Shown: positions 10,612 through 61,929 of the stretch, piece after piece | Numbering within the stretch: position 1 is the stretch's first letter | How the letters are laid out: every line of letters begins with the position of its first letter | Assembly: GCF_024399415.1 (NCBI RefSeq) | Contig: NZ_CP029257.1 | Span: 1,821,501-1,885,500 of the forward strand | Source of the DNA: Streptococcus oralis | GTDB taxonomy: Bacteria; Bacillota; Bacilli; Lactobacillales; Streptococcaceae | Reading direction: 5' to 3' | DNA length: 64,000 nt | Position numbers and translations under genes: made by a program | The notes under the pieces: model-generated | Database searches by the model: none | Seen by the model: only the letters and a program-made list of their open reading frames with translations | Told to the model about the DNA's origin: nothing

Positions 10612-13272
10612 TTATAACCAACTTTTAAATTTTTTGATATACAATCGTTTCACAACTGTAACACTTATCATATAGAGAACGATAATCAAAAGCAAAAAGA
10701 GGAAATAAATTGGTTCCAAAGGGGTTAAATGAAGTAGGCTAGCAATTGAAGAGTAGGGAAGGAAGGTCACAAAACTAGCTGCTAGCAAGGTTGTCCCAAG
10801 AACAAACCATGATGGACGGCTTTGTAAGAAAGGAAGTTTTGCTGAACGAAGCATATGGATAACCATGGTTTGGGACCACATGGATTCAATGAACCAACCT
10901 GTCTGGAACAAGATGATAAAGCCTGTTGCAGACTCTGCTCCGTGAGCATAAGCTTGACCTGTCGCCATTGGGACAATGACAAAATAGAGCAAGATAAAAG
11001 TCAAAATGTCAAAGGCAGACGAAATCGGACCCATCCAAATCATAAAGCGAGTAATAGACTTGGCTTCCCACTTATGAGGATGCTTCAAAAAGTCTTCATC
11101 CACATTATCAAATGGCAAGGCAATGCAAGAAAGGTCGTAGACGAGGTTTAAGACAATCAAGTGAATCGGAGCCATTGGCAGGAAAGGTAAAAAGATACCA
11201 GACACTAACAGAGAGAAAATGTTCCCGAAATTAGAGCTGACCGTCATCTTGATATATTTGGTCATATTAGCATAGACTTTGCGTCCTTCAACCAGCCCTT
11301 TTTCAAGCACCATCAAATCCTTATCTAGCAAAATGACATCAGCCGTCTCTTTGGCAATATCTACTGCTGTATCAACAGAAATCCCCACATCTGCTACTTT
11401 CATTGAAGGGGCATCATTGATCCCATCTCCCATATAGCCGACACAATGTCCATTCGATTTGATTTGTAAAATGATTCGTGCTTTTTGATCCGGAGAGAGT
11501 TTGGCAAAGACGGTCACTTTCTCAACTGCTTGGGCCAACTCTTCGTCCGTCATGGCGTCAATATCAGAACCCAACAAGATTTGATCAACGTCTAGACCAA
11601 CTTTTTCGCAAACTGCTTGGGTTACCTTCTCATTGTCTCCCGTCAAGATCTTTGTTTGAACACCGTGTTCTAACAAAGCTTGGATAGCAGGTGCTGCTGA
11701 TGGTTTTGGTGGATCTAGAAAGGCAAGATAGCCTGTTAGAATCATCTCTTTTTCATCTTCAACGGAGTAAGCAAAACCTTCTTTTAGGCCTGTTTTATAA
11801 GCGACTCCCAAGACTCGCAATCCCTGTTGATTAAGTTGATCTACTTCTTTTAAGATTTCCACACGGATATCATCCGTCAAAGGACTAATCTGACCTTGAT
11901 ATTCCACATGGGTTGAAATCGCAAGCATTTCCTCTAGAGCACCCTTGGTTACCAAACTAACAACTTCGTTCTCATCCTTGACGATGACACTCATCCGTCT
12001 GCGTTCAAAATCAAAGGGTAATTCATCTATTTTTTGGAAGCTAGTATCCAAATTTTGTAGAATAGCGTGTTCTTTAGCTTCTTTTTCAGTTCTACTGATA
12101 ATGGCACGGTCCATCAAGTTTTTCAAACCGGTTTGAAAATAGGAATTGAGATAGGCACGTCTCAACACAGATAAATCCAAATCTCCATGTATATCCAAAG
12201 GATATTCAAGGACAATTTCGTCTTGGGTAAGGGTTCCGGTTTTATCCGTACACAGGATATCAATAGCACCTAGGTCTTGTATGGCATTGAGTTTTTTGAT
12301 GACGACTTTTTCCTTGGCCATGATAATGGAGCCTTTTGCTAGACTGGCTGTGATGATCATAGGAAGCATCTCAGGTGTCAATCCAACACCAACACTCAGT
12401 GCAAACACACCTGCTTCCAGCCAGTCGCCATCTGTCAAGCCATTGGAGAGAAACACGATGGGAACCATGACTAACATCAAACGGATCAAGAGCCAAGAGA
12501 TGCTGTTCATCTCCCGTTCAAAAGAGGTCGGTTCGTCATAGGTATTGAGAGTCTGCTCGATTTCTCCCATCATGGTGTCATCACCGACCGCTAGAATCAA
12601 AGCCTTGGCGCTTCCTGATATCACATTGGTTCCCATAAAAGCGAGTGCTTCTGCTTCTAGCAGACTATCAAAATTTGACTGACTCATTTTTGACAAGGCT
12701 AGTTTTTCAACCGAGTCACTTTCACCTGTCAAACCAGACTGTTGAACAAAGAAATCACGTGATTCAATCAAAAGGAGGTCTGCTGGTATCATATCCCCAG
12801 CACTTAATTTGACTATATCTCCAACGACCAAATCTTCAATTGCGACCTCTAAACTCTGGCCTTCGCGGATAACTGTGGCTGTATTCACAATCATTTTTGA
12901 TAGATTGGTCGCGGCCTTGTCACTCCGCAATTCTTGGACAAAGCGTATGCCACCAGAGATTAGAACGAGAACGACGATGATGATAGAGGTCGTCGGATCT
13001 TCTTGCCCAGGCTTCGCCAACCAGACATTGGTCACCATGGAGATCATAGCGATGACAAGAAGAATGATTGTAAATGGATTGATAATAGATTCGTAAATCT
13101 TTTTGAGGATACTATCTTCTTGACCCTTGGTGATGGTATTTTCGCCATATAGGTCACGATTTTTCTCCACCTGCTCCTCAGTCAAGCCTATTAGACTTGT
13201 CTTATAAAAAGATAGAGTTTCGTTTAAGGGTGTGTGAATAGCTGCTGCTAATCTTTCTTTTGTAGTTTTCAT
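10612..13272 (-). CDS. mgtA: magnesium-translocating P-type ATPase
   Basis: Type IIIB P-type ATPase importing Mg2+. 886 residues, the normal length. The TGES loop is near 182, the phosphorylated Asp is D343 in DKTGTLT, the GDGINDAP hinge is present, and there are about ten membrane segments including VGVGLTPEMLP (TM4 ligand region). SD TAGGAG precedes the ATG. A very long leader holds an M-box riboswitch, a terminator and a leader ORF, so expression should rise when Mg2+ is low. CorA is encoded 5 kb away. Confidence 0.97.
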   Translation of the reverse strand: MKTTKERLAAAIHTPLNETLSFYKTSLIGLTEEQVEKNRDLYGENTITKGQEDSILKKIYESIINPFTIILLVIAMISMVTNVWLAKPGQEDPTTSIIIVVLVLISGGIRFVQELRSDKAATNLSKMIVNTATVIREGQSLEVAIEDLVVGDIVKLSAGDMIPADLLLIESRDFFVQQSGLTGESDSVEKLALSKMSQSNFDSLLEAEALAFMGTNVISGSAKALILAVGDDTMMGEIEQTLNTYDEPTSFEREMNSISWLLIRLMLVMVPIVFLSNGLTDGDWLEAGVFALSVGVGLTPEMLPMIITASLAKGSIIMAKEKVVIKKLNAIQDLGAIDILCTDKTGTLTQDEIVLEYPLDIHGDLDLSVLRRAYLNSYFQTGLKNLMDRAIISRTEKEAKEHAILQNLDTSFQKIDELPFDFERRRMSVIVKDENEVVSLVTKGALEEMLAISTHVEYQGQISPLTDDIRVEILKEVDQLNQQGLRVLGVAYKTGLKEGFAYSVEDEKEMILTGYLAFLDPPKPSAAPAIQALLEHGVQTKILTGDNEKVTQAVCEKVGLDVDQILLGSDIDAMTDEELAQAVEKVTVFAKLSPDQKARIILQIKSNGHCVGYMGDGINDAPSMKVADVGISVDTAVDIAKETADVILLDKDLMVLEKGLVEGRKVYANMTKYIKMTVSSNFGNIFSLLVSGIFLPFLPMAPIHLIVLNLVYDLSCIALPFDNVDEDFLKHPHKWEAKSITRFMIWMGPISSAFDILTFILLYFVIVPMATGQAYAHGAESATGFIILFQTGWFIESMWSQTMVIHMLRSAKLPFLQSRPSWFVLGTTLLAASFVTFLPYSSIASLLHLTPLEPIYFLFLLLIIVLYMISVTVVKRLYIKKFKSWL

Positions 13273-13290
13273 TGGTTTCTCCTATCTGTA

Positions 13291-13368
13291 TGAATGATAT
13301 GTTTCATACACAGAGACCAATCACTTTATAAGGGCAGAACGACACAAATCAGCGATTGGCTGTGTATG
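13291..13368 (-). promoter_or_regulatory. mutually exclusive hairpins in the mgtA leader
   Basis: In the RNA, segment 13368-13351 (within the leader ORF) pairs with 13325-13305 just after its stop: nine plus nine pairs (CAUACACAG/CUGUGUAUG and CCAAUCGCU/AGUGAUUGG) with a UCU bulge. The same 3' arm can instead form UGUAUGAA-loop-UUCAUACA directly before the mgtA SD. The two structures compete, so a ribosome on the leader ORF could choose between them. Confidence 0.6.
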
Positions 13369-13397
13369 TGCGGTTCTGGATGATCGTCAATTTGCAT
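13326..13397 (-). CDS. candidate mgtA leader peptide (23 aa)
   Basis: ATG preceded by a strong SD (GGAAGGGAG, spacing about 8). The peptide starts MQIDDHPEPH and ends CVVLPL, giving an acidic/Pro cluster at positions 4-9. In enterobacteria the mgtA leader peptide MgtL uses an acidic/Pro N-terminus to destabilise ribosomes at low Mg2+; the resemblance here is in composition and position, not sequence homology. It lies between the M-box terminator and mgtA, and its codons form one arm of a long hairpin. Translation is not proven. Confidence 0.5.
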   Translation of the reverse strand: MQIDDHPEPHIHSQSLICVVLPL

Positions 13398-13420
13398 CGT
13401 TTGTCTCCCTTCCTTGTTCT

Positions 13421-13459
13421 AAAACAGTAGAAAATCCCACCATAAAATGGCAGGATTAA
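13421..13459 (-). terminator. riboswitch-controlled terminator
   Basis: Minus strand AATCCtgCCA-tttta-TGGtgGGATT followed by TTTCTACTGTTTT, directly after the M-box. It is the expected expression platform: Mg2+ binding should favour termination. Confidence 0.75.
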
Positions 13460-13479
13460 AAAACTAACTATCTGTTTTT

Positions 13480-13620
13480 TCGTTCAAGCTTTAACTCCAT
13501 AGGGCGATGTAATGAGCTTAGTCTTGGCCTTCGCGACCAGGACTGTTGACCAACGAGTAGTGTCTCCACTGCTTTGCGGTAGTCATCCGTATCCCTATGG
13601 TAGCCTCACCTACCGTTTTC
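13480..13620 (-). promoter_or_regulatory. M-box (ykoK) magnesium riboswitch
   Basis: The minus strand contains the conserved blocks of the ykoK/M-box leader in order: GGTGAGGCTACC, GATGACTACCGCAAAGCAG, GTGGAGACACTACTCGTTGG, CAACAGTCCTGGTCGCGAAG, GGCCAAGACTAAGCTCATT, ACATCGCCCTATGGAGTTAA, AGCTTGAACG. This RNA binds several Mg2+ ions and controls Mg2+ transporter genes in Firmicutes. It lies directly downstream of the mgtA promoter. Confidence 0.93.
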
Positions 13621-13627
13621 GTCTATC

Positions 13628-13656
13628 AGTATAAACCTTTAAAATATAAAAGTCAA
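13628..13656 (-). promoter_or_regulatory. mgtA promoter
   Basis: TTGACT (13651-13656) and TATACT (13628-13633) on the minus strand with a 17-base spacer, immediately upstream of the M-box. Confidence 0.85.
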
Positions 13657-28620: not shown

Positions 28621-31153
28621 ATAACTTTTGTTTGAGCTCGACCAAGACGTTCATAGCCTGTATAGGTGTCATATTGTACACATCCAGTTTAGCTAATTCT
28701 GCTAGGATAGGATGCTCTGCAGGCGCGTCAAAGAGTGACATCTGTTCAGTAACAGCACTTGTTTCTCTCATCGGAGTTGGGCTTTCTTGTCCCTGACTCT
28801 CCAGTTGCGTTAAAATCTTATCCGCCCTTGCTAAAAGTTCCGCTGGTAAGCCAGCAATCTTAGCAACATGGATACCATAGGATTTGTCAGCTGATCCTGG
28901 TTCGATCTTGTGAAGGAAGGTGACCTGTCCATCCTGTTCTAAGGTTGCCACGTGGACATTGACCAAGTGTTCCAAGCTAGACTCCAGACTGGTCAACTCA
29001 TGGTAGTGGGTCGCAAAGAGGGTTTTGGCTCCGATATGTTCATGAATATATTCGATGATGGACTGGGCAAGAGCCATCCCGTCATAAGTTGCAGTTCCCC
29101 GTCCCAATTCATCAAAGAGAATCAAGGAATCCTTGGTCGCATGCGAAATGGCATTGTTGGCCTCCATCATCTCCACCATGAAGGTTGATTGACCTGAAAC
29201 CAAGTCATCTGCTGCTCCGATACGAGTAAAGATAGCATCGAAGATAGGCAAATGGGCGCTTTCTGCTGGCACATAAGAACCCAGCTGGGCCATAACCGCC
29301 GTCATGGCTAACTGGCGCATGTAGGTTGACTTCCCACTCATGTTTGGCCCTGTAATCAGCTGAATACTGGTATCTTCTGCCATCTGAATCGTATTAGGAA
29401 TATAGGTCTGAGCTCCCATGACCTTTTCGACGACAGCATGGCGCCCTTTTTGGATATTGATTTGTGAATCCTCTCCAAACTCAGGTCGGATCAAATGCTG
29501 GGTTTCAGCCACAACTGCGAGACTTTGCAAGACATCAACCGTTGCAATTCCTTGGGCTAGCGCCTGCAAACGCTGGATGTACTTGCTGACTTCCTCACGG
29601 ATGCGCATAAAGATTTCATACTCTAGGTTGGCTGACTTCTCACGCGCCTCCAACATATCTCCCTCGATACGAGCTAATTCCTCGGTACCAAAGCGTTCTG
29701 AGTTTTTCAGCGTTGCCTTGCGGAAAAAGTGGGCTGGCACATTTCCCAGTTGCGAATTAGTCACATGGAAATAGTAGCCGTCCTTTTTATTGTAGTCAAT
29801 CTTGAGCATGCTGATGCCAGAGTTTTCCCGCTCCTTAGCCTCAATCTCAGCAATCCAGCTAGTCCCTTCTCTAAGCACACGACGGTACTTGTCTAAGGTC
29901 TCATCAAATCCCGTACGGATAATGCCACCTTCCGTAATCACATGAGGAGCTTCAGGAGCAATGGCAGCGCTAATCAAGCTCTCCAACTCAGGGATGGCAT
30001 CTAACTGTTCGATAAGATAGGCCAGGGCAGGTTGCTCCATGCCTTCTAAAATCACACGAATCCGTGGTACACTAGATAAAGTGGTCGCCAATTGCAAGAG
30101 ATCCTTTGGATTGGTCTTGCCAAAGGAAACCCGACTAGCCAAACGTTCGATATCATAAACACCCTTGAGACTGTCTGTCAAATCACTGCGCTCAAAGAAG
30201 TGGTCAAGAAAGACCTGCACCACCTCTTGACGTTGGACGATTCGCTCCTTATCAATCAAAGGACGATGAATCCAAGAACGCAAGAGACGCATCCCCATAG
30301 CCGTTTTGGTTTCATCCAAAAGCCAGAAAAGACTCCCCTGCTTCTTACCTGAACGGGCATTCTCAACCAAATCCAGACTAGCCTTGGTCGCATAATCCAT
30401 CTGCAAGAAATCTTTGATTTCATAGCGGATAACTGGTTTGAGGTGGTTCAATTCCCGCATCTGGGTCCGATGAACATACTGGAGGAGCTTACTAGCTGCT
30501 GCTTGCTCCACAGCTGCCAAACGTGAATCCAGTAAATGAAGGTCCTCAAAGCCTTCCTTCTCATAGGAAAGCACCAAATTCATCTGACGGCTGAGGATTT
30601 GTTCTTCTTCCTCAGACAAGTCATAACCCAGCACTACTTCTCGCGCCTTGAGGTTGCGAATTTCCCCACAAACCAACGTGAAATCTAATAGACCTGTCAC
30701 ATAGAAATCACCCGTCACCAAATCCATATAAGCTAGACCAAACTGATTGCCATCACGATCTAAGGCAACCAAGAAATTATTCTGACTATCCGGCTTACTG
30801 CTATCGACGACCGTTCCAGGTGTGATGACCTGGACCACCTCTCGCTTGACAACACCAACCGCTTGTTTGGGATCTTCCATCTGCTCGGCTATGGCTACCT
30901 TATAGCCCTGCTCAATCAGAACATCGATATACTGCTGGGCAGAATGATAGGGGACACCCGCCATGGGTATCGGATTTTCTGCATTTTTATTCCGACTCGT
31001 TAAGGAAATTTCTAAAATCTGTGCTGCATTAATTGCATCTTCATAGAACAACTCGTAAAAATCACCCATTCGAAAAAGCAAAAAAGCATCTGGGTATTGT
31101 TTCTTAATATCCACATACTGTTGCATGCCGGGTGATAGCTTTTCTGTTGCCAT
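28619..31153 (-). CDS. mutS: DNA mismatch repair protein MutS (HexA)
   Basis: 844 residues, the pneumococcal HexA length. Mismatch-binding N-domain with the Phe-X-Glu motif region ([10 protein letters not shown]), lever/clamp domains, ATPase with [11 protein letters not shown]alker [14 protein letters not shown]alker B region and ATHYHEL. Start [13 protein letters not shown] chosen for its SD (AAGGAGAG) and family match; an upstream in-frame start would add 13 unsupported residues. argR lies 50 bases upstream on the same strand. Confidence 0.97.
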
Positions 31154-31203
31154 TTTCCGTCTCTCCTTGCTAAAAATAAGTCTTGAGAGCACCTCCCAAG
31201 ACC

Positions 31204-61780: not shown

Positions 61781-61929
61781 TTTTATCCTTTCCCTTAAAC
61801 GACACAAAAACAGTCAAAACTCGTAAGAAGTGCAGGACAAAAAAGCCTGCAACATCCATGAGCTTTGACCATCATTTCTATTGCTTTTATTATTGTAGCA
61901 AATTGAGAAAATTTGTCAATCTAAATGTA

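Follow-up and report, generated by a model that had tools for sequence, protein, structure and literature searches.

A conserved acidic and proline-containing leader peptide between the M-box and mgtA of streptococci: a candidate second magnesium sensor

Introduction

Does the mgtA gene of Streptococcus oralis answer to one magnesium sensor or to two? M-box mRNAs are usually described as belonging to riboswitch genes with a single sensor. In the window studied here, by which we mean the whole 64,000-nucleotide stretch of S. oralis DNA that was analysed, a short open reading frame with an acidic and proline-containing start lies between an M-box and mgtA (Table 1). The arrangement raises the question of whether translation of this leader could add a magnesium input of its own.

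Precedents come from distant bacteria. In Salmonella, the mgtQ uORF before mgtB is linked to a choice between RNA arms (1:2 plus 3:4, or 2:3), requires its Asp2 and Glu5 codons and is modulated by L31; the acidic codons raise downstream translation (excerpts of PMC8092293). For MgtL, low Mg2+ is described as causing ribosomes to drop off at an acidic/proline motif, which turns mgtA on via Rho (excerpts of PMC11282234). The nearest report that we found concerns Mycobacterium, where a conserved uORF (uORF2, Rv1805A) with a conserved N-terminus and an early proline directly follows an M-box; its authors propose translational control of the uORF by the M-box, and the idea of a destabilising leader is absent from the excerpts of that article (PMC12810186).

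Among the papers listed, our literature search found no acidic uORF behind a Firmicutes M-box, although it covered open-licence papers alone and is thus weak evidence of absence. Mg2+-related leader terms led to nothing relevant in the excerpts of ribosome-profiling papers on S. pneumoniae (PMC9426450) and S. aureus (PMC13009471), and uORF and mgtE terms led to no M-box uORF in those of PMC11109978.

Results

Layout of the locus

The leader ORF begins 125 nt and stops 53 nt 5' of the mgtA ATG. A preliminary description of the locus had credited it with a strong Shine-Dalgarno (SD) sequence. The SD in the window is good but short of perfect, given that most relatives carry AAAGGAG in place of its AGGGAG. 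The same description placed the ORF after the terminator of the M-box. It does lie behind the M-box, and a hairpin is present between the two, yet the pattern scan for terminators did not list this hairpin. Promoter-like sites numbered two in the pattern scan, compared with 1.4 expected in shuffled sequence. Elsewhere in the window there are Rfam gathering-level matches to the streptococcal sRNAs Spd-sr37 and SpR10 (61817-61883 and 31150-31196, both on the minus strand).

Table 1. Features of the mgtA leader region in window coordinates
Feature	Position	Strand	Basis or remark
Sigma-70-type promoter-like site, TTGACT-17-TATACT	13628..13656	-	10/12 consensus matches, pattern alone; directly 5' of M-box
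M-box (ykoK) magnesium riboswitch aptamer	13468..13619	-	RF00380, 87.4 bits (gathering 44), full model length
Hairpin between aptamer and leader ORF, presumed M-box terminator	~13433..13457	-	-14.8 kcal/mol for the folded stretch, z -5.0
Leader ORF Shine-Dalgarno, AGGGAG	13405..13410	-	Window sequence
Leader peptide ORF, MQIDDHPEPHIHSQSLICVVLPL, 23 codons	13326..13397	-	ATG 13397, stop TAA 13328-13326; frame conserved
Acidic/proline block, codons 3-9 (I D D H P E P)	13371..13391	-	Third-position substitution pattern
RNA arm 1 (leader start region and first codons)	13383..13401	-	18 pairs with arm 2
RNA arm 2, within leader ORF	13338..13368	-	Arm 1 pairs with 13356-13338, arm 3 with 13368-13351
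RNA arm 3, directly past leader stop codon	13305..13325	-	18 pairs with arm 2
Hairpin 3:4, covers mgtA Shine-Dalgarno and start	13271..13321	-	-15.1 kcal/mol, z -3.2
mgtA Shine-Dalgarno, AGGAGA, within arm 4	13278..13283	-	
mgtA, magnesium-translocating P-type ATPase, 886 aa	10612..13272	-	NCBIfam TIGR01524 and NF011702 above cut-off; ATG at 13272

Conservation of the leader among MgtA loci

We compared 183 loci of MgtA relatives, made up of 30 loci and 73 fetched regions, both from a search of 197 Streptococcus genomes, and 80 named loci (78 from Streptococcus and one each from Abiotrophia and Granulicatella). These sets overlap, and the 183 loci contain 121 distinct leaders. An SD-led ATG uORF with at least two D or E and a P in residues 2-10 was present in 178 of the 179 loci free of N. 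The same rule was satisfied by 65 of 3580 shuffled leaders (1.8%) and by three of 179 reverse strands of the same stretch. The sole miss, L103, is a distant paralogue (44%) without an M-box in the scanned stretch. Together with the selection on its first residues described below, this count bears out the preliminary proposal of a leader peptide with an acidic/proline start as a real ORF.

Most leaders carry the N-terminal block QIDDHPEPH. Distant leaders retain acid and proline and little else (MPNDDHPSQQ, MSSDDHPISQ, MPEDGHPEKT, MLSDDYSEKP), and acid and proline are also retained outside Streptococcus (MPNADSEPIL in Abiotrophia, MPEPDSKQNL in Granulicatella). In S. parasanguinis-like leaders the start codon is shifted one codon upstream, in frame. 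Downstream of the block, the leader varies in length (18 to 47 aa), sequence and frame. Frame disruption in close relatives had been named in the preliminary description as an observation that would count against a peptide; the frame differences seen lie downstream of the block (L069 compared with L060; L053; L034), and none was seen inside it among streptococcal leaders with the IDDHPEP-type block.

Several loci depart from this layout in other ways. The loop that joins arms 3 and 4 is enlarged by some 106 nt of inserted sequence in four S. infantis-type leaders (L039, L041, L043, L052), with both arms intact. In L018 and L110, the latter from S. oralis DD21, leader and mgtA are separated by a stretch of N with CTGCCCTTATA repeated on its two sides. 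In G076 and G160 (loci L100 and L101), frame or stop differences appear to break mgtA, while both retain an intact leader peptide block.

A first scan of 20 loci found the M-box (RF00380) in 18, all but the paralogue L103 and the S. sanguinis-type L058, for which the stretch scanned was too short; a second scan, on longer loci, found it in all 16. In eight of these 16, of the S. sanguinis/cristatus type, the M-box lies about 0.9-1.1 kb 5' of mgtA (L169 and, by M-box position, L148, L149, L150, L154, L155, L158 and L170). The gap between M-box and leader in L169 (2082-2875) is filled by a 203-codon gene, glutathione-transferase-like by eye, so that the order is M-box, gene, uORF, mgtA, with the uORF adjoining mgtA. 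Judged by this gene order, the leader of S. sanguinis-type loci has stayed with mgtA and not with the M-box. It occupies an inter-gene gap, as mgtQ does between mgtC and mgtB (excerpts of PMC8092293).

Selection on the start of the peptide

Substitutions were counted by parsimony on 111 distinct leaders with an IDDHPEP-type block, using a tree built from the 300 nt 5' of the uORF. Across the codons I-D-D-H-P-E-P we counted 33 inferred substitutions, 30 at third, three at first and none at second positions, and only three of them change the amino acid. The two codons past PEPH had 11 substitutions, none at a third position (Fisher p 5e-8). The tree region is non-homologous in at most 17 of the 111 leaders, and the count was repeated on the 94 leaders with the M-box tail: on this cleaner tree, third positions account for 25 of 26 substitutions in the block and 0 of 9 in the next two codons (Fisher p 1e-7).

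The IDD part of the block sits in RNA helix 1:2, and HPEP lies outside helices 1:2 and 2:3. Third-position changes also predominate in HPEP (16 of 19 in the 111 leaders, 12 of 13 in the 94). Because the bias extends to these codons outside the helices, the substitution pattern indicates that the start of the leader is selected as a peptide and not as RNA alone. Conservation of the reading frame across streptococci, and not just of the RNA, was a check that the preliminary description had named. The conservation of SQSLIC can be explained by RNA pairing. We regard a translated and selected leader peptide as almost certain.

Two alternative folds of the leader RNA

The complementary arms of the leader can, by calculation, adopt two alternative folds: helices 1:2 and 3:4, with the mgtA SD hidden, or helix 2:3, with the SD free. 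In the window the energies are -15.1 kcal/mol for 1:2, -22.9 for 2:3 and -15.6 to -15.9 for 3:4, and an inner leader hairpin of -17.1 kcal/mol competes with arm 2.

Covariation was assessed in an alignment of 74 distinct leaders, all of the IDDHPEP type and free of a long insertion. Paired cells made up 97.1% for 1:2, with changes on both sides in 5 of 18 pairs (0 of 500 shuffles), and 93.2% for 2:3, also with both-side changes in 5 of 18 pairs (2 of 500 shuffles). Helix 3:4 had 91.7% of cells paired and both-side changes in 2 of 18 pairs, a weak covariation reached by 28 of 500 shuffles. Slid controls paired in 20-59% of cells; two slid versions of 1:2 match the true helix in cells with double changes (24 and 27, compared with 22) but have far fewer paired cells. 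In L034, which carries an insertion, the surrounding arms 2 and 3 have changed sequence, yet 1:2, 2:3 and the IDDHPEP codons are kept (arms chosen by eye); in a full-length calculation for this leader the mgtA SD remains hidden.

Position of the ribosome and choice of fold

A ribosome was represented by masking -15 to +13 around the P-site, with the end of the nascent RNA set 12 nt before mgtA. Averaged over the 74 leaders, the computed probability of 2:3 on nascent RNA was 0.14 without a ribosome and 0.41 with one at or beside the start codon. Placing the P-site on the four codons D-D-H-P raised it to 0.92, 0.91, 0.96 and 0.85, in that order; at E it was 0.64, at the second P 0.12 and at later codons about 0. 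The predicted optimum for 2:3 thus coincides with the conserved DDHP. The window leader behaves similarly on nascent RNA (0.00 free, 0.89 at D5, 0.98 at H6, 0.69 at P7 and 0.14 at E8).

For full-length RNA, the highest mean probability of 2:3 among the 74 leaders was 0.42, with 32 of the 74 above 0.5. For the window leader the longest RNA gave at most 0.03 and preferred the closed form (3:4), because the inner hairpin and 3:4 together outweigh 2:3; at full-length equilibrium the masked ribosome brought this leader no relief of the cost of opening the mgtA SD. Given this return to 3:4, a co-transcriptional decision that reverses slowly must be assumed.

The cost of opening the SD was compared with ribosomes at codon 4, 6 or 8, taking the best of the three, and with ten shuffles. 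Among 19 leaders of the MgtA set, the relief was 2.4 kcal/mol, compared with 0.07-0.49 in the ten shuffle sets; among 31 chosen leaders of other Firmicutes, the mean was 2.2 kcal/mol, compared with 0.21-0.62. Little or no relief was seen in L099, L093 and L182. In S. parasanguinis-like leaders 18 nt separate the end of the uORF from mgtA, and a ribosome close to the stop codon would open 3:4 as well. Because completed translation would then also free the gene, the sign of the effect or the coupling could differ in these leaders.

Acidic uORFs behind M-boxes across Firmicutes

Of 148 genomes scanned from the order, 106 had an M-box; the corresponding figures were 42 of 121 for the class and 72 of 199 for the phylum. 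Downstream regions were taken for 80 matches from the order (Lactobacillales), 30 from the phylum and 29 from the class, among the matches listed. The rule of at least two D or E in residues 2-9 was set after inspection of Lactobacillales peptides, and the phylum loci had not been seen beforehand. It is satisfied by 13 of the 27 phylum loci with a called gene (30 fetched; L275 and L276 are near-identical) and by 8 of 29 class loci, three of the eight being Lactobacillales kin of earlier loci and one, L316, a doubtful second uORF.

In the order and phylum sets combined, 110 regions gave 103 M-boxes with a called downstream gene. By type of gene, an acidic SD-led uORF precedes 26 of 51 MgtA-like, 9 of 26 MgtE-like, 3 of 5 CorA, 1 of 5 MgtC and 3 of 3 GNAT genes; shuffled sequences give an expectation of 1-6%. 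None was found at the 13 M-box loci with PAP2-, FtsW- or ABC-permease-like genes, and 15 of the 51 MgtA-like loci, several with short leaders, have no SD-led ATG uORF at all. Gene clusters were formed by BLAST and their labels checked by Pfam on ten representatives. Metal-ion transporters make up most of the clusters that were checked, and in the MgtE cluster L271 has only a PRC-barrel match by Pfam.

Examples of the peptides are MEDPSHSRK, MDHPAPERN, MDHPSPQMK and MEAPSPEPL before MgtA, MDHPDSRHI and MESDDDYLK before MgtE, MDSDGDSSK before CorA and MDSPSSSR before a member of the Nramp family (L302). After removal of seven regions without a called gene, seven short leaders and 14 near-duplicate peptides from the 139 regions, D or E stands at residue 2 in 38 of 111 M-box loci, compared with 1.6% in shuffles (p 1e-39, by a rule set post hoc). 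The preliminary description had held that a second, translation-based Mg2+ sensor in series with an M-box would be unusual in Firmicutes. This expectation is not supported, as acidic uORFs follow many M-boxes throughout the phylum.

TPP riboswitches served as a further control, and an SD-led ATG uORF was found in 0 of 21 (30 loci, nine of them short) and in 0 of 30 in the class scan. TPP leaders are shorter, however, with a median in the class set of 127 nt compared with 260 nt, which makes shuffles the fairer comparison. At L209, L223, L237, L275, L278 and L297 the uORF overruns the called main start out of frame; full translation of such a uORF would block main initiation, and early abortion would free it, a simpler way to the same outcome as the arms. 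Main-gene starts are approximate at L297, at L253 and at the Nramp loci L300, L302 and L303.

Discussion

We propose that the leader is a ribosome-destabilising Mg2+ sensor of the mgtQ kind, placed in series with the M-box and controlling mgtA in cis, and we put the probability of this reading at about three in four. The frame, the selection and the complementarity are drawn from comparison of the sequences; that the fold depends on where the ribosome stands is a result of calculation. From these we infer that the leader would be translated in the cell, that ribosomes would pause or drop off on it in a manner dependent on Mg2+, and the sign that the effect on MgtA would have.

The proposed sequence of events is as follows. 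With ample Mg2+ the M-box would stop most transcripts; at low Mg2+ transcripts would be read past the terminator. Low Mg2+ would also loosen ribosomes, so that they pause or fall off at the acidic and proline codons D-D-H-P (intrinsic ribosome destabilisation). A ribosome on D-D-H-P would mask arm 1 and leave arm 2 free, and the free arm 2 would capture the nascent arm 3, which would make mgtA translatable. Ribosomes that translate further would cover arm 2, or depart; helices 1:2 and 3:4 would then re-form, with mgtA off.

The leader probably works like mgtQ, although in another phylum and behind an M-box. The two share a short SD-led uORF with early Asp or Glu codons, a position before a gene for a Mg2+ P-type ATPase, and arms that hide or free the ribosome-binding site; mgtQ differs in having eight codons, in its PhoP-controlled operon and in being enterobacterial, with no M-box mentioned in the excerpts of the source (PMC8092293). 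With mgtL it shares the place of an mgtA leader peptide, the acidic/proline start and, in the mechanism proposed, activation of mgtA when translation aborts at low Mg2+. According to excerpts of PMC11282234, however, mgtL acts by Rho-dependent termination, whereas in the streptococcal locus the arms would cover the SD of mgtA, with an M-box further 5'. The putative switch in the uORF is also distinct from the M-box (RF00380), as a separate element behind the aptamer and the presumed terminator. There is no apparent sequence homology between mgtQ and the streptococcal leader, the likeness being one of layout. The resemblance to enterobacterial mgtL and mgtQ may be convergent, and we do not claim common descent. 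Attenuators of the ermC type follow the same logic of 1:2 plus 3:4 or 2:3, with a ribosome held early, as proposed for the streptococcal leader; erm leaders differ in that the arrest depends on a drug and not on acidic residues.

Other explanations deserve consideration. The same leader and switch could sense general translation stress, such as shortage of EF-P or ABC-F or the presence of antibiotics, and not Mg2+. EttA acts on the acidic motif of MgtL in E. coli (excerpts of PMC11282234) and another E. coli uORF senses antibiotics (excerpts of PMC12121999), so the idea has parallels. We nevertheless consider it improbable, as the uORFs are paired with M-boxes and Mg2+ transporters.

Alternatively, the leader could be an amino-acid-sensing attenuator that reads the supply of histidine and proline through its HPEPHIH codons, with stalling at hungry codons freeing mgtA. 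The streptococcal block does contain His and Pro codons, and P-sites on H6 and P7 are at or near the computed optimum. Counter to this, no run of His or Pro is kept across M-box uORFs, in which Asp or Glu beside the start is often what is kept (MEDSSH, MDDSSQ, MESDDD, MEISSS). Within streptococci, His10 has changed to Asp twice and codon 12 is free to change, and the genes downstream are, in most clusters checked, those of metal-ion transporters. We therefore judge control by His or Pro supply unlikely.

It is also conceivable that the hairpins alone are functional and the reading frame incidental. Much of the ORF lies inside the conserved helices 1:2 and 2:3, and SQSLIC is apparently kept mainly by pairing. 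Such an RNA-only switch is very hard to reconcile with the third-position changes in IDDHPEP and in HPEP, with the in-frame shift of the start codon in S. parasanguinis-like leaders, and with the retention of acid and proline where the RNA differs. A small protein that functions in trans, for example on MgtA, would account for a conserved ORF that adjoins mgtA, but we give this little credence, since neither the length nor the sequence nor the frame of the C-terminal part is conserved and the third-position pattern is limited to the first nine or so residues. An arrest peptide of the SecM kind was considered and rejected, as the leader is without a conserved C-terminal arrest motif and its C-terminus varies, being frame-shifted in L069.

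Returning to ribosome destabilisation in series with the M-box, we suspect, with somewhat less assurance than for mgtA itself, that M-boxes of Firmicutes frequently supply no more than one half of the Mg2+ control: an acidic uORF prone to abortion would precede genes of the MgtA, MgtE, CorA or Nramp type and act either through arms that hide the ribosome-binding site or through overlap with the main start. If this is true, bacteria in general would sense Mg2+ by ribosome destabilisation, in series with the M-box, the mechanism would be no enterobacterial peculiarity, and the principle of mgtL and mgtQ would extend far outside enterobacteria. The result would be a Mg2+ gate with two inputs, in which the aptamer reads free Mg2+ and the leader reads Mg2+ bound to the ribosome.

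The survey of M-boxes also brought to light associations with other kinds of genes. Within Lactobacillales, M-boxes without acidic uORFs lie directly 5' of FtsW/RodA-like genes (L195, L197, L207, L221; Pfam on L195) and 5' of PAP2-/LytR-like genes (L184, L187, L188, L194, L215, L260; Pfam on L184). At L201, L216 and L235 an M-box and an acidic uORF precede a GNAT acetyltransferase-like gene, in three of three cases, with Pfam on L216 only. At L274 and L290, the strand opposite the M-box carries a c-di-GMP-II riboswitch at a distance of some 260-320 bases.
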